A model generated the notes under the pieces. It saw only the letters and a list, made by a program, of their open reading frames with translations, ran no database searches and was not told the DNA's origin. A DNA stretch of 37,257 nt from Candidatus Zixiibacteriota bacterium. Lineage in GTDB: Bacteria; Zixibacteria; MSB-5A5; SM23-73-2. The translations under genes were made by a program, and so were the position numbers. The stretch lies in contig JAUWYR010000024.1 in the NCBI GenBank assembly GCA_030615745.1, positions 1 through 37,257 on the forward strand, read 5' to 3'. Positions 2,776 to 33,106 of this stretch are shown piece after piece (the stretch's first letter is position 1; each line of letters opens with the position of its first letter).

Positions 2776-4638
2776 ATGACAATGACTAAAAAATTAATGA
2801 TAGTTTATTGTATGTGCGGGTTGATTTTATCTGGCTTAAACTATGACCCTGATGATTCATATCTTAATACAGCATATGGGCAGAATTTCGAGAAGGACTC
2901 TGAAAATAGAAAACCTAAAGCTTTTAGTGAAAAAGAGGGCATAGCCAAGAAAGTGAATTTTAAGGAGGTTACCGTAACCAGATGGAAGGATTCTCAAGAT
3001 AGGAAACCCATAAGCTATGTGGAATGGAGGAACAGAGTCGGGGAAAGGGGTCTATTTAAGATAGAACTTTCTAAGAAAAGTCTGAAACTTAAAAGAAAAG
3101 GAAACGGGGCAAAGTTCTGTGTGATAGTGAATTCTACTCTTTATGATGATATCCAATCTTCTGTAGATCAATATGTGATGGATCTTACAAAAGAAGGATA
3201 TGATGTTGAAGTTTATACCACCTCTGGTGGCACTCCAGAGGATCTCCGTGCTTTCCTTCAGGGAAGATACTCTTTGGGTCTCGTGGGATGCATCTTTATT
3301 GGAGATCTTCCTGTTGCCTGGTATGAGACCGAGTGCTGGGATCCTCCAGAGCATGAGGAGTTTCCCATTGATTTATATTATATGGATTTAGATGGAACCT
3401 TCGGAGATTCAGACTTAGATGGAATCTATGATTCTCATACTGGTGACATTTCACCTGAGATATGGATTGGTAGACTAACAGCCTCCACTCTTACTTTAGG
3501 CGGAGCTAATGAAGTCTCTTTGGTTCAAAATTATTTTTATAAAAATCATCTGTACAGAAGTGGGCTACTTTCTCTTAATAATCGTGCCTTAGTGTATATT
3601 GATGACGACTGGGTTTACTGGGCAGATGAGTGGGATACCGATGTTGGAGAAGCATATAGTGAAAGAACCCTAATTAAAGATGAGTTGACAACCATACACA
3701 CTGATTACGAAAGCAGACTCCCGCAAAACTATGAGTTTATCCAGATATGTGCTCATTCAAGCCCCTTTGAGCATTGGTTCAAAATCCCTCCTGATGAATG
3801 GGACGGATATACCAGCAATTCTGAGGTGAAAGCCATTGATCCTTTAGCCTTTTTCTATAATCTTTTTGCCTGTTCCAATGCAAGATACGTGGAGGCAAAT
3901 TATATGGGAGGCTGGTACATTTTCTGTCAGACTTATGGACTTGGAGCCCTGGGCAGTGCCAAGACCGGTTCTATGCTTAACTTTGGTAATTTCTACCAAC
4001 CTTTCGGAGAGGGAAAAACAATAGGAGAAGCTTTCTGCGATTGGTTTTCCAGTATAGCCTCTGGTGGGTTTGAGGAATGGGAAGTATGCTGGTTTTATGG
4101 AATGACATTATTAGGCGATCCAACTCTTACCCTTAAGAATAAACCTACACTTTATGCTCCTGCTGACTCGACCATAATATATGATATTACTCCTACATTT
4201 AAATGGTCTCATACTGCTGGAACTGGAGGCACATATACTTTAGAATATGACACTAACAGCCTATTCTCAGCTCCGGAAGTATTTGACAGCTTGACAGATA
4301 CCGTGTTCACTGTTCCTGATACCCTTCCCTTATCTTATTTTACTTATTACTGGAGGGTGCAAGCTATAGATGAAGCTCAAAATCCATCTGGTTATCAATC
4401 CCATCCTTTCTCTTTCACTGTATATATGTGTGGAGATGCTAACAATGACTACACATTAGACCTTGCTGATGTTATCTGGATAGCAAATTATAAATTAAAA
4501 TCAGGTCCTCAGCCTATTCCCACTGAGTTAGCAGGTGATGCAAATGGAGACTGCGCAGTAGATTTATCCGATGTCGTCTATTTGGCAAATTACCTGCTCA
4601 AAGGAGGTCCAGACCCTGTTCCCTGTGAGGAATATTAA
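2776..4638 (+). CDS. Secreted C25 (gingipain-like) cysteine peptidase with FN3-like and dockerin domains
   Basis: The 620-residue protein has an N-terminal signal-like hydrophobic segment (MTMTKKLMIVYCMCGLILSG). The C25 catalytic core spans about residues 110-450. The catalytic His is H327 in 'ICAHSS' and the nucleophile C366 in 'FACSNARY'; the family hallmarks 'GCIFIGDLP' and 'MTLLGDPTLTL' are also present. An Ig/FN3-like domain follows (about 455-550). A two-repeat dockerin-like C-terminus comes last, with Ca-loop patterns GDANNDYTLDL and GDANGDCAVDL, each ending in (K/L)xGGPxP or similar. C25 enzymes are secreted endopeptidases. The C-terminal module suggests anchoring to a surface or partner protein. 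The start is the first ATG after CACGGAG; a second ATG two codons on is possible. It is a lone gene with a strong terminator at 4709. Confidence 0.9.
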   Translation: MTMTKKLMIVYCMCGLILSGLNYDPDDSYLNTAYGQNFEKDSENRKPKAFSEKEGIAKKVNFKEVTVTRWKDSQDRKPISYVEWRNRVGERGLFKIELSKKSLKLKRKGNGAKFCVIVNSTLYDDIQSSVDQYVMDLTKEGYDVEVYTTSGGTPEDLRAFLQGRYSLGLVGCIFIGDLPVAWYETECWDPPEHEEFPIDLYYMDLDGTFGDSDLDGIYDSHTGDISPEIWIGRLTASTLTLGGANEVSLVQNYFYKNHLYRSGLLSLNNRALVYIDDDWVYWADEWDTDVGEAYSERTLIKDELTTIHTDYESRLPQNYEFIQICAHSSPFEHWFKIPPDEWDGYTSNSEVKAIDPLAFFYNLFACSNARYVEANYMGGWYIFCQTYGLGALGSAKTGSMLNFGNFYQPFGEGKTIGEAFCDWFSSIASGGFEEWEVCWFYGMTLLGDPTLTLKNKPTLYAPADSTIIYDITPTFKWSHTAGTGGTYTLEYDTNSLFSAPEVFDSLTDTVFTVPDTLPLSYFTYYWRVQAIDEAQNPSGYQSHPFSFTVYMCGDANNDYTLDLADVIWIANYKLKSGPQPIPTELAGDANGDCAVDLSDVVYLANYLLKGGPDPVPCEEY

Positions 4639-11065: not shown

Positions 11066-11872
11066 ATGAACAAGTGTTTAACTGTTGTTTTGGTGCTTTT
11101 GGTAGCGGTTTTTGCTTCTTCTGTCTGGGCAGCTACCAATGAGATGGCGATTAACCCAACTCAAAAAGGAGATATACTTACTGTGCCAGTATACTTCAGC
11201 AACAATGAGCCGATGGCTGGTATTGTTCTATTTCTGAAAATTACTGACTTGAAACTCATTACTACTATTGAGGAAGCATTTGATAAATCGCGAGCGAAAG
11301 ACCTCAGTTTTAAAGTTGTCTATTATATTGGGGAACAGAATATTGTCTCAGTCGGTGCGCTGGCAATAGGTAAAAATGATATCCCTGTAGAACCTGGCGC
11401 TGGATTATTAGCCAACTTAAAATTTAAGGTTATTGGTCCTAATCCCAGAGTGGAACAGAGTTCCTTAAAGCTTAGTGATGGAAATTTCAGTGAGATGCAG
11501 ATGGTTGATAAGGATGCAGAAGATATGCCATTTGAATTCAAAATCGGTGAAATTATCGGTATAGAAGAATTGGAGACAGGAGAAAATAATATCCCAAAGG
11601 AGTTTGCTTTATTTGGCAACTATCCTAATCCGTTCAACCCTCAGACTACCATCGCCTTTGCTCTGCCGGAGAGAGCCCAGGTAAATCTAAAAATTTACAA
11701 TATCGCTGGTCAATTGGTTTGGAGTCACGATAAAGAATTTGAAGCTGGCAATCATTCTATCACCTGGAATAGCCAGAATAACAATGGCGAGATTGTGGCT
11801 TCCGGCATTTACCTTTACAAGTTAGTGGCAGGCAAGCACAGCTCTACCCAGAAGATGGTCTTGGTGAAGTAA
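11066..11872 (+). CDS. Secreted protein with cohesin-like domain and FlgD-Ig/T9SS-type C-terminal domain
   Basis: The 268-residue protein has a clear signal peptide ending 'SSVWA-AT'. Residues about 25-165 resemble a cohesin-like beta-sandwich: 'GDILTVPVYFSNNEPMAGI' near its start and 'PVEPGAGLLANLKFKV' further on, the same phrases as in the protein at 36031. Residues about 180-268 form a FlgD-Ig-like domain with 'YPNPFNPQTTIAFALP', 'VNLKIYNIAGQLV' and the terminal 'KMVLVK', the usual type IX secretion sorting domain of Bacteroidetes-like and FCB lineages. The function is probably structural or scaffolding on the cell surface. GGAGG lies 7 bases before the ATG. It is monocistronic, with its own promoter, leader and terminator. 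Confidence 0.85.
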   Translation: MNKCLTVVLVLLVAVFASSVWAATNEMAINPTQKGDILTVPVYFSNNEPMAGIVLFLKITDLKLITTIEEAFDKSRAKDLSFKVVYYIGEQNIVSVGALAIGKNDIPVEPGAGLLANLKFKVIGPNPRVEQSSLKLSDGNFSEMQMVDKDAEDMPFEFKIGEIIGIEELETGENNIPKEFALFGNYPNPFNPQTTIAFALPERAQVNLKIYNIAGQLVWSHDKEFEAGNHSITWNSQNNNGEIVASGIYLYKLVAGKHSSTQKMVLVK

Positions 11873-23155: not shown

Positions 23156-23238
23156 ATTCAACCTAAGGACACACCTATAGTTTTTTCAGCCCTTTCCGAT
23201 TCATTAAATAGACTTTCTTTAAAAACAAGGAGAAAAAA

Positions 23239-24666
23239 ATGAACGATTTTGAGGGTCCTGAGAGAAGAATATCCAGAAGGATAAGAACCAAGTTTTATTT
23301 CAAATATCGAGTAAAAAAAGGCAAGTTTGCAAAAGAGGAATTAGAAACTACAAAAACAAATGATATTTCCTCTGTAGGTTTGCAATTCACCTCGGAAATT
23401 CCTTTTCCAATCGGCACAAGCTTAGAGCTTAAACTGAAAATTCCTAAGTTTGATCATTTGATAGATGTGGAAGGAAGAGTTGTGAGGATAAGCGAATTGG
23501 ATAAAAAGAGATACTATATTGGAGTGGCATTTGTTCATATAGATGAGGCTGATCAAAAAAAGCTGAAAAAACAAATTGATTTAATCGACATAGCCAAACT
23601 TTTAGAATTAATGGTAGAAAAAGGTGCATCCGATCTTCACCTCACAGTGAATAAGCCTCCATATTTAAGGATCAACAAAGAGCTTATTCCTATAAACATC
23701 GAAAGCCTTTGCTCAGACGATATGAAAAGGATGATCTATTCGGTGATGGATCAATCCCAACAAGAACAATTCGAGAAAGAAAAAGAGTTAAACTATGCTT
23801 TTCAACTCCCTAATTCAGGTCGGTTTAGAGTAAATGTTCATCTTCAGAGAGGGAACGTTGAGGCTACTTATAGATATATTCAGCGAAAGATAAAATCGAT
23901 ACCAGAATTAGGTTTACCCCCGGTATTAGATGATTTAGCTCGTTATCCCAATGGATTGATTATAATAACAGGACCTACTGGTGTGGGCAAAAGCACCACT
24001 TTAGCTGCAATGCTTGAGTTGATCAACAAAGAGTTTCGGAAAGTAATAGTAACCCTTGAGGACCCAATAGAATTTGTTCATGAGAGCAGAAATTGTGTTA
24101 TCAAACAGAGGGAGATAGGGTTGGACACCAAAAACTTTGCCAGCGCTTTAAAACATGTTCTTCGCCAGGACCCTAATGTGATATTTATTGGAGAGGTGAG
24201 AGACAAAGAGACTATGTCAGTTGCCTTAGAAGCCGCAGAGACCGGGCATTTAGTTTTGACAACCCTGCATACCTCAGATGCGGCACAGACAATAAACAGA
24301 GTTTTAGGGATATTTCCTCATGACCAGCGTGAATCAGCAGCAGCCCAGCTTTCTTCCTGTTTAAGAGGGGTTGTATGTCAGAGGCTCTTCCCGAGAAAAG
24401 ATAACAAGGGTTTGATAGTAGCAACAGAAGTATTAATTGCTACACCTGCGGTAAGGGTGGTTATAAAAGATGACAGAATCGAACAGATACCCAATTTCAT
24501 CCTAACTGGTCAAGCCGAAAAGATGCATTCAATGGATTCCTCGATTCTGAATCTCTATAACAGGGAAAAGATAACTTTCGAGACAGCGATCGAAGCTGTA
24601 GTGGATAAAAGAAGATTCGTAGCAGTTGCCAGCGAAGAAGAGGCAAAACTACATTCATATATATAA
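23239..24666 (+). CDS. PilZ-PilT fusion: type IV pilus retraction-type ATPase with N-terminal c-di-GMP-binding domain
   Basis: The 475-residue protein starts with a PilZ domain (about 1-115). It has the c-di-GMP motif RxxxR (R9/R10-R13/R14 in 'PERRISRRIR') and [D/N]xSxxG as D42-I-S-S-V-G47. A complete PilT-like secretion ATPase follows: the N-terminal 'LLELMVEKGASDLHL' typical of PilT, Walker A GPTGVGKST at 245-253, the Asp box, 'IGEVRDKETMSVALEAAETGHLVLTTLHT' (Walker B and His box; here cited as 'GEVRDKETM' and 'LTTLHTSDAA'), and 'RVLGIFP'. Free-standing PilT retracts pili. Fusion would let c-di-GMP act directly on the motor. No other pilus gene is adjacent. CAAGGAG lies at good spacing before the ATG. 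Confidence 0.92.
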   Translation: MNDFEGPERRISRRIRTKFYFKYRVKKGKFAKEELETTKTNDISSVGLQFTSEIPFPIGTSLELKLKIPKFDHLIDVEGRVVRISELDKKRYYIGVAFVHIDEADQKKLKKQIDLIDIAKLLELMVEKGASDLHLTVNKPPYLRINKELIPINIESLCSDDMKRMIYSVMDQSQQEQFEKEKELNYAFQLPNSGRFRVNVHLQRGNVEATYRYIQRKIKSIPELGLPPVLDDLARYPNGLIIITGPTGVGKSTTLAAMLELINKEFRKVIVTLEDPIEFVHESRNCVIKQREIGLDTKNFASALKHVLRQDPNVIFIGEVRDKETMSVALEAAETGHLVLTTLHTSDAAQTINRVLGIFPHDQRESAAAQLSSCLRGVVCQRLFPRKDNKGLIVATEVLIATPAVRVVIKDDRIEQIPNFILTGQAEKMHSMDSSILNLYNREKITFETAIEAVVDKRRFVAVASEEEAKLHSYI

Positions 24667-25163: not shown

Positions 25164-27299
25164 ATGCGTAAGATTTCAGTTTTTCTTCTGATTTTGGGGG
25201 TGTTGTTTCTTTCAGCAACTTCCCTTTCACATGCTCAGATTCATAAGGTTAAGATTTCGGAATTGGAGAAGAGTTTTCCTGATGAGTTGCGGAAATTACC
25301 TGAGTCAACCCGACCAAGAATAAAGGGTTTGGATCTCCTTAAGCTCACCGAGGGTGATATCGAATACCTCTCCAGTATCCTCTGGTCCGGAGTATTTGGC
25401 GTCCAGGTTGTTGGTGATTACGCCTATTGTGCTTTTGCAAATGGTCTGGTTATTCTTGATGTTTCCGATCCTGGTAGTCCAGCTTTTGTAAGCAGACTAT
25501 ATTTCCAGGGTGGAGGGGAGGAAATTCTCGTATTGGGGAATTATGCTTACTTAGCTGACGGTCACTCAGGCTTGCTGATAATCGACATCTCTGATCCCTT
25601 TAACCCATATCTATTGGGAAGCTATGACACACCAGGAGGTGCTCATGATGTTTTTGTCCGGGATAGCTTAGCCTGTGTTGCGGATGATTGGGGGTTACAG
25701 ATAATTTCTGTTGCTGATCCTTCAAATCCTTATCTTTTAGGAAGCTATAACACGCCAGGAAGGGCTTTAGGTGTTTTTGTGCAGGATTCCTTAGCCTATG
25801 TGGCGGATGGAGATAATGGCTTACAGATAATATCTGTTTCTGATCCTTCAGCTCCATATCTATTGGGAAGCCATGTTACATGGTCTGCTCAGGATATTTT
25901 TGTCCAGGATAGCTTAGCTTATGTGGCAGATCGAGATAGTGGCTTACAGATAATTTCTGTTTCTGATCCTTCAGATCCTTATCTATTGGGAAACTATGAC
26001 ACACCAGGATGGGGTGACGATATTTTTGTTCAAGATACCTTTGCATATGTTGCGGACGATCATAGTGGCTTACATATAATTTCTGTGTCTGATCCTTCAA
26101 TTCCTTATCTTTTGGGAAGCTATTACACACCAGGATATGCTTCAGGTGTTTTTGTCCAGGATAGCTTAGCCTATGTGGCGGATCATTGGAGTGGGTTACA
26201 GATAATCTCTATCTCTGCTCCTTCAATTCCTTATCTTTTGGGAAGCTACGACACACCAGGGTTGGCTCGCAGTGTTTTTGCCCGGGATAGCTTAGCCTAT
26301 GTGGCGGTTCAGTATGGTGGCTTACAGATAACTTCTGTGTCTGATCCTTTAAATCCATATCTATTGGGAAACTATGGCGCACCCGGATGGGCTTGGGATA
26401 TTTTTCTCCGGGATAGCTTGGCCTATGTGGCGGATTTTTGGAAAGGCTTACAGATAATCTCTGTCTCTGATCCTTCAAATCCATATTTAGTGGGAAGCTG
26501 TGAGACACCAGGATTAGCTTTGGGTGTTTTTGTCCAGAATAACTTTGCCTATGTAGCGAGTGAAGATAGAGGCTTACATATAATCTTTATTTCTGATCCT
26601 TCAAATCCATATCGTGTAGAAAGCTATGACACACCAGGATATGCTTTGAATATTTTTGTGCAAGACAGCTTAGCCTATGTGGCGGATAGAGATAGTGGCT
26701 TGCAGATAATCTCTGTTTCTGATCCTCTAAATCCTTATCTATTGGGAAACTATGACACACCAGGATTTGCTAATGATGTGTTTGTGCAGGATAGCTTAGC
26801 CTATGTGGCGGATGAGTATGGTAGCTTACAGATAATTTCTGTTTCTGATCCTTCAAATCCATATCTTCTGGGAAGCTATAACATATTAGGATGGCCTCGT
26901 GGTGTTTTTGTCCGGGATAGCTTAGCCTATGTGACGGATGGTAATGGCTTACAGATAATTTCTGTGTCTGGTCCTTCAAATCCATATCTTTTGGCAAACT
27001 ATGACACACCAGGAAATGCTGAGGGCGTTTATGTTTCAGACAATTATTATCACATAGTCGACTCGTATTCCCTTTTGATTCTGGGTCAGTTTTTGTGCGG
27101 AAATGTCAATGGAGAGGGAACAATAAATTTATCTGATCCCATTTATCTGGCAAATTACCTTCTCAAAAGTGGACCTGCACCGGTCTCCTTATGGGCTTCG
27201 GATGTCAACTGCGATTCAAAAATCAACCTTGCTGATGTCCTGATAATAGCCAAGTATTTTTTCAACATTCCAGGATTTGATTTGAACTGCTGCGATTGA
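25164..27299 (+). CDS. Secreted LVIVD-repeat (14-blade) beta-propeller protein with dockerin
   Basis: The 711-residue protein has a signal peptide (MRKISVFLLILGVLFLSATSLSHA). After about 60 residues, two divergent and twelve highly alike units of about 42-43 residues follow, each of the form 'SNPYLLGSYDTPGxAxxVFVQDSLAYVADxxxGLQIISVSDP'-like (shown here as 'NPYLLGSYDTPG', 'VFVQDSLAYVAD', 'GLQIISVSDP'). These are LVIVD propeller blades. Fourteen units would make two seven-blade propellers. The C-terminus (about 650-711) has two dockerin-like repeats: '[27 protein letters not shown]' and 'SDVNCDSKINLADVLIIAKYFF'. It probably mediates extracellular protein or surface binding. The blades are near-identical at DNA level, implying recent expansion. 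AAGGAGG precedes the ATG. Confidence 0.88.
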   Translation: MRKISVFLLILGVLFLSATSLSHAQIHKVKISELEKSFPDELRKLPESTRPRIKGLDLLKLTEGDIEYLSSILWSGVFGVQVVGDYAYCAFANGLVILDVSDPGSPAFVSRLYFQGGGEEILVLGNYAYLADGHSGLLIIDISDPFNPYLLGSYDTPGGAHDVFVRDSLACVADDWGLQIISVADPSNPYLLGSYNTPGRALGVFVQDSLAYVADGDNGLQIISVSDPSAPYLLGSHVTWSAQDIFVQDSLAYVADRDSGLQIISVSDPSDPYLLGNYDTPGWGDDIFVQDTFAYVADDHSGLHIISVSDPSIPYLLGSYYTPGYASGVFVQDSLAYVADHWSGLQIISISAPSIPYLLGSYDTPGLARSVFARDSLAYVAVQYGGLQITSVSDPLNPYLLGNYGAPGWAWDIFLRDSLAYVADFWKGLQIISVSDPSNPYLVGSCETPGLALGVFVQNNFAYVASEDRGLHIIFISDPSNPYRVESYDTPGYALNIFVQDSLAYVADRDSGLQIISVSDPLNPYLLGNYDTPGFANDVFVQDSLAYVADEYGSLQIISVSDPSNPYLLGSYNILGWPRGVFVRDSLAYVTDGNGLQIISVSGPSNPYLLANYDTPGNAEGVYVSDNYYHIVDSYSLLILGQFLCGNVNGEGTINLSDPIYLANYLLKSGPAPVSLWASDVNCDSKINLADVLIIAKYFFNIPGFDLNCCD
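25573..27050 (+). repeat. Coding tandem repeat, about 126-132-base unit, 12 near-identical copies
   Basis: Each unit repeats phrases such as TATCTATTGGGAA, ACACCAGGA, GATAGCTTAGCCTATGTGGC and TTACAGATAAT with few changes. Divergence is concentrated in a few codons between 'TPG' and 'VFV' and between 'VAD' and 'GLQ'. Confidence 0.9.
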
Positions 27300-27824: not shown

Positions 27825-29219
27825 TCACAAAATATACCTGCTCAAATCCTCATCCTCCACAATACCTTTTAATTTCTCCTCAACCAATTTTTTTGTAACC
27901 TCAATCTTTTTGGTCTCAGAGTCTGGGATGGAAAACATTATTTCCTCTAAAAGGGTTGTCAGCACCGTATGAAGCCTTCTTGCACCTATGTTCTCAGTGC
28001 GTTCATTAACCAGATTTGCGGTCTTGGCGATCTCCTCTATAGCATCATCGGTAAAAGTTATCTCCACCCCCTCTGTGGCTAAAAGTGCAGTGTATTGCTT
28101 GATCAAAGCATTCTTTGGCTCGGTCAGAATCCTTTTGAAGTCCTCTGTGGTGAGGCTATCTAATTCAACCCTTATCGGGAATCTTCCCTGAAGCTCAGGG
28201 ATAAGATCAGAGGGCTTGGACGCGTGAAATGCTCCTGCAGCTATAAAAAGTATATGGTCTGTTTTTACCATCCCATATTTGGTCATAACTGATGTCCCCT
28301 CAACAATAGGGAGAAGGTCTCTCTGAACACCTTCTCTTGAAACATCCGGACCATTCTTGACTTTTTCACCAGCGACCTTATCCAACTCATCCACAAATAT
28401 TATACCGGAGTTCTCCATCCGGTAGATCGCCCCAGAGATCACCTCATCCATATCAAGTAATTTCTGAGTCTCCTCCTGGGTCAAAAGCTTTCTTGCTTCT
28501 CCAATCGTGACCTTCCTTCTTTTGGTCTTTTTTGGAAGCATTCCGCCCAGCATCTCCTGAAAATTCATCCCTAACTCCTCTATACCCTGAGATGAAAAGA
28601 CCTCGATAATAGGAAATCTATCATTTGGACGCTCGACTTCAATCTGTCTTTTTTCCAATTTTCCCTGATGCAATTTTGCTCTGAGCTTTTCACGTGTGCT
28701 CTCTCTTTTAGCTAAAGCTTCTTCCTGAGCTCTTGGTGCATACGCATTTATTGAATGGGATGATGTGGTCAGTTGTCTTTTTTTGGGAGGACGAGGTAAA
28801 AGAAGGTCTAAAATCCTTTCCTCAGCTAATTTTTCAGCTTTCTGGGCGACCTGGATCGATTTTTCTCTTTTAACCATATTTACTCCAAGATCCACCAAAT
28901 CCCTTACCATCGACTCAACATCCCTTCCCACATATCCAACCTCAGTATACTTGGAGGCTTCCACCTTCAAAAAAGGGGCATTGGCTAAATTAGCTAATCT
29001 TCTTGCGATCTCAGTTTTGCCTACTCCAGTAGGACCTATCATAATTATATTATTGGGCATAATCTCATCTTTTAAATCATCTTTAACCTGTTGTCGTCGC
29101 CACCTGTTTCTTAAAGCAATAGCTACCGACTTTTTTGCCTTATTTTGCCCAATTATATACTTATCTAATTCCTCCACAATCTGTTTTGGAGTAAGTTCTT
29201 CCATTTTTAAATGTGCCAA
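27825..29219 (-). CDS. hslU: ATP-dependent protease ATPase subunit HslU (ClpY)
   Basis: The 464-residue AAA+ unfoldase has Walker A at residues 62-69 (GPTGVGKT), Walker B '[10 protein letters not shown]', the inserted I-domain (about 110-240) and '[18 protein letters not shown]' (sensor 2 region). It ends 'EDLSRYIL', the tail that docks into HslV. The start is TTG at 29219: GAGGAG lies 8 bases upstream inside the end of hslV, whereas the later ATG at codon 6 has no SD. HslU hexamers feed unfolded substrates into the HslV chamber. It is last in the topA-xer-hslV-hslU run. Confidence 0.97.
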
Positions 29220-29221
29220 AA

Positions 29222-29749
29222 TTAAAGCTCCTCTATGAAAAATTTATCATTGGTGTAGACGCAGATGGATGCTGCTATCTCTAAAGATTTTTTCACAATC
29301 TCTTTAGCATCTAAATCAGAGTATTCTTTCAAAGCTTTTGCAGCTGCCAAAGCATAGGGACCGCCTGAGCCAATAGCCACGATTCCATCCTCAGGCTCTA
29401 TAACATCTCCATTACCTGATATTATCATAGAGTGGTCTTTGTCCAAAACTGCCAAAAGTGCTTCTAAGCGTCTTAAGAATCTATCAGTCCTCCATTCCTT
29501 AGCTAATTCAACTGCAGCCCGGGGTAGATTCCCTCTGAACTTCTCGATATTCCTCTCAAACCTCTCAAAAAGGGTGAAAGCATCAGCAGAAGTTCCAGCA
29601 AAACCAGCAAGTATCTTGTTGTCATATAACCTACGTAGTTTGTTAGCACTATGTTTTAAAATAGTATTCTCAAAACTAACCTGCCCGTCCCCTCCAACAG
29701 CCACCTTCCCCTTATGCCTTATCCCAATAATAGTGGTCGATCTAATCAT
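29222..29749 (-). CDS. hslV: ATP-dependent protease proteolytic subunit HslV (ClpQ)
   Basis: ATG at 29749 is chosen (AAGGGATGTGAG upstream), giving 175 residues like E. coli HslV; an ATG at 29773 would add eight. The catalytic N-terminal threonine is in '[14 protein letters not shown]', so processing would remove about four residues (MIRS). '[11 protein letters not shown]' with the conserved Asp-Gly follows, then '[15 protein letters not shown]' and '[13 protein letters not shown]'. It forms the two-hexamer peptidase chamber with HslU. The next start (hslU TTG) comes right after its stop codon. Confidence 0.97.
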
Positions 29750-29775
29750 CTCACATCCCTTTTTTTCTTTCATTT

Positions 29776-29838
29776 CACCTACTACCTACCACCTACTACC
29801 TACTACCTATTACCTATTACCTATCACCTCTCACCTAT
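29776..29838. repeat. Heptanucleotide tandem repeat (YACCTAY), nine copies
   Basis: Nine in-register 7-base units (CACCTAC, TACCTAC, TACCTAT and one CACCTCT) run from the last codons of the recombinase gene across its stop to the ribosome-site region of hslV. Heptamer arrays are prone to slippage, and a change of one unit would shift the recombinase tail frame. Confidence 0.9.
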
Positions 29839-30744
29839 CTTTTCCGCCCTCGGATGAGCCTGTTTGTAAATCTTTTTCAATCTTTCCACTGAAACATGGG
29901 TATAGATTTGAGTGGTGGAGAGGTTTTTATGACCCAGAAGCTCCTTTACCGCCATAAGGTCTGCGCCCTCATCTAAAAGATGTGTGGCGAATGTATGCCT
30001 TATAATATGAGGGCTTTTCTTTTTAACCTCTGAAACTTGACTTAAATTCTTTTTTACGATTCTCGCAATACTTCTTTCAGAGAGCCTTTGTTTTTGCCTG
30101 TTAATAAACAGAGCTTTTGTTTTTATATCAGATAATAATTTACGAAGAAAAAGATAATCTTTTATAGCCAAAATTGCTTTTTTACCCACAGGGACAATTC
30201 TTTCTTTTTTACCCTTTCCTAAGACTCTAATCGTCTCTCCAGTGTAATCAATAGACGCAAAATCCAATCCAGCTAACTCGGAAAGCCTGATCCCTGTTGA
30301 ATAGAAAAGCTCTAAGATAGCTTTATCTCTTCGTGCCCAGACATTCTCCTTTTCCGGCTTTTCTAAAATCTTTATCATCTGTTCGACTGATAACACCTCA
30401 GGAAGTCTTTTTTCTTTTTTTGGGGTTATAAGATATGACGCAGGATTTTTTCTAATTATATTTTTCCTTTTCAAAAATTTAAAAAATGACCTTATAGATG
30501 ATATTTTACGAGCAATTGTTATAAAACTTTTCTTTTTTAAATTCAAATCTATTACAAAATCACGCAAGATATTTCTATCTATTTCTTTAAAATTGACCTT
30601 CCCTTTCTTTTTCTCTAAAAAAGTCTCCAGCTCTTTTAGGTCGGTTTCATAGGAGATCAGGGTGTTTTTGGAGAAATTCTTTTCTTTTTTTAAGTGAACC
30701 AAAAAACTTTTAATCTGCGAAGATAAACTACTCATTTTTAACAT
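29824..30744 (-). CDS. xerC: Xer-type tyrosine recombinase
   Basis: The 306-residue protein has an N-terminal SAM-like core-binding domain (about 8-95) and a C-terminal catalytic domain. The full catalytic set is present: R153 ('STGIRLSEL'), K177 ('GKGKKER'), H246 and R249 ('[10 protein letters not shown]'), H272 ('[12 protein letters not shown]') and nucleophile Y281. With a partner or alone it resolves chromosome dimers at dif. Position between topA and hslV matches the Bacillus codV/xerC context, hence the symbol; XerD/XerA type is not excluded. The start overlaps the topA end by 17 bases (or 8 from ATG 30735). The last four residues (IGER) are encoded by a heptamer array. Confidence 0.93.
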
Positions 30745-33106
30745 CTATTTTTTCGACTTTTTCACAACCGCATTTCAAACATTTCAAAAACTCCCCCTTG
30801 GATTTACTTGTTTTCAAAACCATAAATTCCGCCCCGCATTCTGGACAAATTTGAGCAATGGGTTTGTCCCAGGTCGCAAAATCACATCTGGGATAGTTAG
30901 AGCACCCGAAAAATACTTTGCCTCTTCTTGTCTTTCTTTCAACCAGAAATCCATCACATCCTTTTTCAGGGCATTTTATCCCTAAAGATAAGGGTCTGGA
31001 ATATTTACATTCTGGGTATTTTGAACAGGCTAAAAATCTTCCGAATTTTCCAGTTTTTATAACTATAGGGGAGCCGCAAAGTTCACATTTTTGGTTATTT
31101 ACGATTTTCTCTTCCTCCTTTGAGACCAGAGGCTTGGTATTTTTACATTCAGGATATTTAGAACAGGCTAAAAATCTTCCAAATTTCCCTGTTTTTATAA
31201 CCATAGGGGAACCGCAAAGCTCACATTTTTGGTTATTTGCTATCTTTTCTTCCTCCTTTGAGACCAGAGGCTTGGTGTTTTTACATTCAGGATAATTAGA
31301 ACAGGCTAAAAATCTTCCATTTTTACTCCATTTGATAATCATTGGTTTTCCACATTTCTCGCATATTTCATCTGTTTTCTCCTCAAGCCGATTTTTTATT
31401 TTGATTTTCTCCTTTTCGACCTTTTTCAGAGTGGTTTCAAAAGGGAGATAAAAATCTTTCAACACTTTTACCCATTCATCCTTACCCTCTTCTATTTTAT
31501 CCAGTTCAGACTCCATATTAGCAGTGAATTTCACATTAAAAATTTGGGGGAAGTTCTCCACTAAGATTTTGTTCACAGTAATACCCAATTCAGTCGGAAC
31601 CAGCTTTCTTTTCTCAGAAGTCACATATTTTCTTTGCTTAATTGTAGTTACTATCTGAGCATAGGTGGAGGGTCTTCCAATTCCGTTAGTTTCAAGTTCC
31701 TTTATCAAACTTGCCTCAGTAAATCTGGGCGGAGGCTTGGTGAAGTGCTGTTGTGGTTTCAATTCCAAAAGCTTTAAAATTTCACCCTCTTTCAAGTCAG
31801 GTAGTTTTTCTTCCTCTTTATCCTCTGAATTCTCCTCCTTTATCTCCTGATAAACTTTAAGAAATCCATCAAAGATTAATTTAGAACTTGAAGCTCGAAA
31901 AAGATATTTCTCCGCTTCAATTTCAACTGTTTTAGTATCGTAGGAAGCCTGACTCATCTGCGACGCCACAAAACGGGACCAAATTAACTGATAGAGTCTG
32001 AATTGCTCATCTGATAAAAAATCTTTTATAGAATCCGGAGTATATTCCAGATAAGTGGGTCTGATAGCCTCATGGGCTTCCTGTGCACCTTTTTTCGATC
32101 GGTATTCTCTTGGTTTTTCTGAAAGATATTTTTCTCCGAAGTTTTTTGAGATAAAATCTCTGAGACCTTTTTTTGCTTGTTCCGATACCCTAACCGAGTC
32201 AGTCCTCATATAGGTGATCAACCCAACACTACCTTTTGACCCTAATTCTACACCCTCGTATAACTGTTGAGCTATCCCCATAGTTTTCCGTGACGGAAAG
32301 AAAAGCCTTCTGGCTGCATCCTGTTGAAGGGTGCTGGTGATAAAAGGAGGATAAGGATTGCGATGTTTCTTCTCCTTTTTAAACTCAACTACTACAAATG
32401 TTTTACTTTTAATATCATCAACTATTGTTTGAGCTTGGGTCTTTTTTCCGATTTTGAAATCTTTACCATCGATTTTAAAAAGTTTAGCATAAAACGATTG
32501 CTTTCCAAAAGTTCCTAAAAGTGCGGTTATGCTCCAGTATTCCTCAGGTATGAAATCTTCTATTTGTTTTTCCCTTTCAGATAAAATCCTCAATGCAACC
32601 GATTGAACCCTTCCTGCGCTCAGACCCCAGTAGATAGTTTCCCACAAAAATGGGCTAACTTTATACCCTACTAAACGGTCTAAAATCCTTCTTGCCTGCT
32701 GGGCATTGACTTTGTTCATATCTAAAGGACCAGCATCATTTATTCCCTTTAAGACCGCCTCTTTAGTTATCTCATTGAAACAAGCTCTGTAGATAGAGGA
32801 ATTGACTTCGTCGATCTCTTGAGCTATATGCCAGGCAATAGCCTCACCTTCCCTATCCGGATCAGGCGCTAAATAAACCTTAGAAACTTTTTTAGCCTCA
32901 TCCTTAAGCTTCGAAATAACCTTCTCTTTTCCTTTTATCACTTCATATTCTGGGCGAAAACCTTTTTTTATCTCAATGCCCAAACTCTTCTCAGGCAAAT
33001 TCCATATATGACCTTTAGTAGCCTCGACCTCCCAATTTTTACCTAAAAATTTCTTGATGGTTCTTGTTTTGGCAGGTGATTCAACTATGATCAGATTTTT
33101 TTCCAT
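30728..33106 (-). CDS. topA: DNA topoisomerase I with five C-terminal zinc ribbons
   Basis: The 792-residue type IA topoisomerase has an N-terminal Toprim domain ('[18 protein letters not shown]', '[14 protein letters not shown]') and active-site Y299 in '[13 protein letters not shown]'. 'EAHEAIRPT' and '[14 protein letters not shown]' also match the family. Five Cys4-type ribbons lie between about residues 575 and 785. Ribbons 2 and 3 are almost identical and derive from a 138-base tandem duplication. It relaxes negative supercoils. It overlaps xer downstream and follows rpoZ by 7 bases. Confidence 0.97.
31020..31296 (-). repeat. 138-base tandem duplication within topA zinc-ribbon region
   Basis: TTTGAGACCAGAGGCTTGGT recurs at exactly 138 bases (31121 and 31259), as do the surrounding GAACAGGCTAAAAATCTTCC and CCGCAAAG-TCACATTTTTGG stretches. 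The unit is 46 codons, in frame. Confidence 0.85.

Follow-up and report, generated by a model that had tools for sequence, protein, structure and literature searches.

A PilZ domain fused to a PilT-type ATPase in the Zixibacteria: a candidate c-di-GMP-responsive pilus retraction motor

The window analyzed here, a stretch of 37,257 nucleotides from a Candidatus Zixiibacteriota bacterium, carries a gene whose product joins an N-terminal PilZ domain to a PilT/PilU-family ATPase. The gene and its parts are located as follows.

23239..24666, + strand: PilZ-PilT fusion gene, 475 aa, with Pfam and NCBIfam matches; 7 other genomes in the phylum carry orthologues
23227..23232, + strand: ribosome-binding site AAGGAG, read directly from the sequence
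23263..23574, + strand: PilZ domain, aa 9-112 (PF07238, 51.9 bits; 8/8 members match; barrel in the AlphaFold2 model)
23266..23280, + strand: RxxxR motif, R10-R14, invariant in 8/8 orthologues
23362..23379, + strand: DxSxxG motif, D42-G47, invariant in 8/8 orthologues
23545..23619, + strand: junction of the PilZ C-terminal helix (aa 103-115) and the first PilT helix (aa 118-127), from AlphaFold2 secondary structure
23590..24606, + strand: PilT/PilU-family ATPase, aa 118-456 (TIGR01420, 429 bits; best Foldseek match Geobacter PilT4)
23971..23997, + strand: Walker A GPTGVGKST, aa 245-253, sequence motif
24052..24072, + strand: Asp box TLEDPIE, sequence motif
24178..24195, + strand: Walker B VIFIGE with the catalytic Glu, aa 314-319, sequence motif
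24244..24273, + strand: His box GHLVLTTLHT, aa 336-345, sequence motif
24448..24471, + strand: AIRNLIRE-like motif AVRVVIKD, diverged, sequence motif

The reading frame starts with ATG behind the AAGGAG, and neither a promoter nor a terminator signal exceeding chance was found at the gene. It stands alone, with a beta-helix protein gene upstream and, about 500 bases downstream, the gene of an LVIVD-repeat/dockerin protein. The latter (25164-27299, + strand) encodes a secreted, strongly repetitive protein of 711 aa with 13 LVIVD repeats by Pfam and a C-terminal dockerin. Elsewhere in the window, the genes at 2776-4638 and 11066-11872 (+ strand) show a match to Peptidase C25 (gingipain-type) and a type IX secretion sorting tail, which suggests T9SS-like secretion in the organism. 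On the opposite strand, 27825-33106 holds in a row the genes of an AAA_2 ATPase and a proteasome subunit (HslU/HslV-like), a tyrosine recombinase (XerC-like) and topoisomerase I.

The original prediction, of a PilZ domain fused to a PilT-type ATPase, is borne out by curated models, since both domains score above their cut-offs: PF07238 matches aa 9-112 with 51.9 bits (gathering cut-off 22.5), and the pilT_fam model TIGR01420 is matched over positions 2-340 of 343 with 429 bits (cut-off 319). Solved PilT proteins match with E down to 6e-99, and a sequence search of the PilZ part against the PDB gives only weak matches. The c-di-GMP motifs are intact as described, with R10-R14 forming RxxxR and D42-I-S44-S-V-G47 forming DxSxxG. 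A second RxxxR overlaps the first at R9-R13; R10/R14 is the pair kept by the orthologues. On the ATPase side, the predicted Walker A, Walker B and His boxes are all present, together with an Asp box, and the segment aligned to AIRNLIRE (AVRVVIKD / AVKGTIRQ) retains the motif in part. The protein has no MshEN match in Pfam and therefore differs from the MshE-type ATPases, as had also been proposed.

The AlphaFold2 model of the protein (63 rows; mean pLDDT 90, pTM 0.78) consists of a six-strand PilZ-like barrel (pLDDT about 90) and a PilT fold. Its best Foldseek matches are Geobacter PilT4 chains, with TMt values mostly above 0.9 and up to 0.96 at 44% identity. The barrel ends in the helix of residues 103-115, and the PilT helix 118-127 begins two residues later, suggesting that the putative receptor is joined to the motor with hardly any slack. 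No long flexible linker between PilZ and PilT occurs in any of the 8 orthologues.

To delineate the distribution of the fusion within the phylum, 98 relatives were searched first and then all 133 genomes. It is found at full length in 8 of the 133, distributed over three families: f1 contributes the present genome and another of its genus, f2, of the same order, contributes four genomes, and f16, placed elsewhere in the class, contributes two. In f3, another family of the same order, none of the 5 genomes has it. The fusions are clearly set apart by bit score (at least 751, against at most 419 for the plain PilTs). This patchy distribution fits a single origin with losses, or transfer inside the phylum. 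An assembly chimera was rejected because the same fusion, with its junction conserved, recurs in eight different genomes.

Outside the phylum, none was seen in the 80 best-matching loci of a collection of 84,980 species. Likewise, none occurs among the genomes sampled from four other phyla (about 1,150 in all), where scoring covered the best 4-8 candidates of each genome in the runs of 395, 331 and 347 genomes and all candidates in the run of 80. The long N-terminal extensions of PilTs in other phyla were read and are not PilZ. The PilT of L166:382-1848 (genome G137) has an N-terminal extension that resembles a second, degenerate PilT N-domain more than a PilZ. The PilZ-PilT fusion is so far confined to one phylum, and no published example was found in the open-access literature, where most subscription journals and architectures listed solely in databases are absent.

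The genome, 98.6% complete, encodes one PilB-type and three PilT-type ATPases. The search for a separate plain PilT, recommended with the original prediction, found two: one lies with PilB and PilC in the pil cluster on contig C8 and the other on C56, the fusion being on C48. A tree built from 82 PilT sequences unites the eight fusions in a single clade, supported at 100/100 and set on a long stem. This clade branches outside both the phylum's pil-cluster PilT and its other plain PilT, and is also distinct from proteobacterial PilU. The genome's own PilT is placed near those of Gemmatimonadota and Krumholzibacteriota, which, together with the gene content of the window, suggests an FCB-type phylum and perhaps Zixibacteria. 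The fusion is therefore an old, separate paralogue, and its derivation from a recent fusion to the housekeeping PilT of the pil cluster is ruled out. Identity with PilU is likewise ruled out by the separate 100/100 clade, and the gene does not adjoin pilT. Thirteen positions kept by the plain PilTs, a set made up mostly of the main PilT type, differ in the fusions (e.g. D185N, N289K, R368A).

The same tree contains two ORFs that each encode two PilT domains in tandem, L087:4879-7059 (Lentisphaeria, 727 aa) and L061:5140-8256 (Myxococcota, 1039 aa). Each domain of the first pairs with one of the second on long branches, as if this tandem fusion were common to both.

In close pairs of orthologues, dN/dS is about 0.11-0.13 for the PilZ part and about 0.09 for the ATPase, and selection therefore keeps both halves. 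The window protein and 6 of its 7 orthologues, thus 7 of the 8 fusions, keep the Walker A, Asp box, Walker B Glu and His box intact. The eighth, in genome G054 (L178:8178-9599), is an open frame with intact PilZ motifs and a degenerate ATPase site. In place of GPTGVGKSTT its Walker A has AGG---GDSTT, so that the Walker A Lys is lost, and both His-box histidines are gone along with neighbouring residues; by homology to PilT, the second of these histidines faces the nucleotide (PMC6858323). Since the ATPase site is lost in one orthologue, being a motor is not essential everywhere. The G054 lineage seems to have retained the sensor without the motor, suggesting that its fusion serves as a partner of the plain PilT; this protein is possibly a pseudo-ATPase regulator.

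It can be argued from the G054 protein, which keeps an open frame and all PilZ motifs despite the loss of the Walker A Lys and the nucleotide-facing His, that the fusions in general are PilU-like regulatory subunits. They would respond to c-di-GMP and work only with a plain PilT, which a PilZ-bearing ring or mixed complex would adjust, and their own ATP hydrolysis would be dispensable. PilU itself acts only together with PilT (PMC6762196), and the fusion is likewise an extra paralogue beside a plain PilT. However, the other seven members retain every catalytic motif under strong purifying selection, and the fusion does not group with PilU. We consider a purely regulatory role unlikely.

The motif pair in the PilZ domain is by itself weak evidence of c-di-GMP binding, as shuffling this Arg/Lys-rich domain 200,000 times produces it in 635 cases, but its invariance over the 8 orthologues is strong evidence. 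The original prediction depended on the arginines and DxSxxG being kept among orthologues, and R10, R14, D42, S44 and G47 are constant in 8/8 while PilZ identity to the window protein drops to 24%. Only 13 PilZ columns besides Met1 are invariant, and all five putative c-di-GMP residues are included (P about 1e-5). A chance motif is ruled out by this constancy.

The same residues bear on whether the PilZ domain could be a protein-docking module, for the PilB N-domain or for a GGDEF or HD-GYP protein, that no longer needs c-di-GMP. The precedent is that PilZ of Xanthomonas and Pseudomonas acts on PilB without binding c-di-GMP (PMC11656802). In the present case, however, the five ligand residues are invariant while most of the domain has changed. 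The look of a degenerate PilZ is illustrated by the only other PilZ of the genome (C70, L182:3485-3862), in which both RxxxR and DxSxxG are absent. A docking role that no longer needs c-di-GMP appears less probable still than a purely regulatory role. Because that other PilZ has neither motif, the fusion is the genome's sole PilZ predicted to read c-di-GMP; other types of c-di-GMP receptor, MshEN included, are possible in the same genome. The C70 gene is near what look, by eye, like sigma-factor and response-regulator genes.

Enzymes of c-di-GMP turnover are encoded in the genome as well, namely two GGDEF proteins with GGEEF and two HD-domain proteins (HD-GYP) with HDIGK/HDLGK and GYP. Its PilB (L179:11627-13318, C8) has an MshEN-type N-terminus with ELGxxLVxxG, where Glu stands in place of the Arg of the c-di-GMP motif. 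A loss of c-di-GMP sensing by PilB special to the fusion genomes was ruled out: this Glu in the first MshEN-type motif is common to nearly all PilBs read across the phylum, including L219-L234, and is therefore unlinked to the fusion. Directly upstream of pilB (L179:13332-14779, C8) are a Roadblock-like gene and a putative small-GTPase gene, MglA-like by eye, which suggest polarity control of the pilus.

In none of the genomes read is the fusion gene part of the pil cluster, and the genes around it differ between families. An HD-GYP gene is found two genes upstream in G006, an exopolysaccharide-type epimerase gene adjoins the fusion in G040 and G054, and an EpsI (exosortase-associated) gene in G006 and G008; the HD-GYP and exopolysaccharide-related neighbours are weak hints to its role. 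That the fusion drives or brakes another type-IV-pilus-like machine or an exopolysaccharide-linked system instead of T4aP, as its absence from every pil cluster in the loci read and the adjoining epimerase and EpsI genes might suggest, is very improbable, given that the ATPase falls above cut-off in the PilT/PilU T4aP family and that no second assembly ATPase was found beside the genome's one PilB-type.

We conclude, with a probability of about 0.62, that the fusion is a c-di-GMP-responsive accessory retraction motor of T4aP, a third PilT paralogue that would carry its own receptor. In this mechanism, the cell's GGDEF enzymes would synthesize c-di-GMP and its HD-GYP enzymes would degrade it, and the PilZ barrel would bind it through R10/R14 and D42-S44-G47. 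Binding would then alter either ATP hydrolysis by the ring or its docking on the pilus platform. The fusion ring might act alone or beside the plain PilT, and retraction would be tuned by c-di-GMP without an intermediary protein. Considering that the binding residues are intact in eight genomes, the signal could act directly on the retraction motor; we infer c-di-GMP binding, its coupling to the motor and the partnership with plain PilT. A more specific version, in which the retraction ATPase is gated allosterically in cis by c-di-GMP and the G054 descendant has become a c-di-GMP-reading regulator of plain PilT, is tentative, and we would place it slightly below even odds. As for the sign of the effect, our guess, hardly better than a coin toss, is that c-di-GMP lowers retraction and favours attachment.

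Several observations count against a c-di-GMP-responsive motor, namely the location outside the pil cluster, the variable neighbours and the dead site of G054. Another is provided by XC_2249 of X. campestris, a PilZ protein that contacts PilT and PilU and is able to bind c-di-GMP, yet whose control of motility is independent of this binding (PMC3749722). Whereas PilZ and motor form one chain in the fusion, XC_2249 works in trans as part of a complex with GGDEF and HD-GYP proteins, and its ligand binding is not required.

Among known systems, the fusion shares the ATPase, catalytic motifs and predicted fold of the PilT/PilU family (TIGR01420; Geobacter PilT4, 6OJX), from which it differs by the added N-terminal PilZ and its distinct deep clade. 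The known PilT and PilU were argued to be unlikely targets of c-di-GMP regulation because they are without an N-terminal domain (PMC4624772). In MshE of V. cholerae, MshEN couples c-di-GMP to an extension ATPase (PMC5013675). Like MshE, the fusion combines a pilus/secretion ATPase in cis with an N-terminal c-di-GMP receptor, in its case a predicted one, but it has a PilZ fold in place of MshEN and a retraction-type in place of an assembly-type ATPase. In the PilB-PilZ-FimX complex of X. citri, too, a PilZ fold is positioned N-terminally on a pilus ATPase (PMC11656802). Unlike the fusion, however, that complex consists of separate proteins, its motor is an extension motor, and its PilZ does not bind c-di-GMP.

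Judging from the sequences, this conserved, lineage-restricted fusion most likely subjects a retraction-type pilus motor to the direct influence of c-di-GMP. It is established that c-di-GMP controls type IV pili at extension motors such as MshE and via adaptor proteins, whereas PilT and PilU had been reasoned to be beyond its direct reach. If our reading is true, the fusion would be the retraction-side counterpart to MshE on the extension side. With motor and putative receptor in one chain, signal-gating of retraction would become directly testable with a single purified protein, and the fusion would also serve as a ready tool for tuning retraction chemically.
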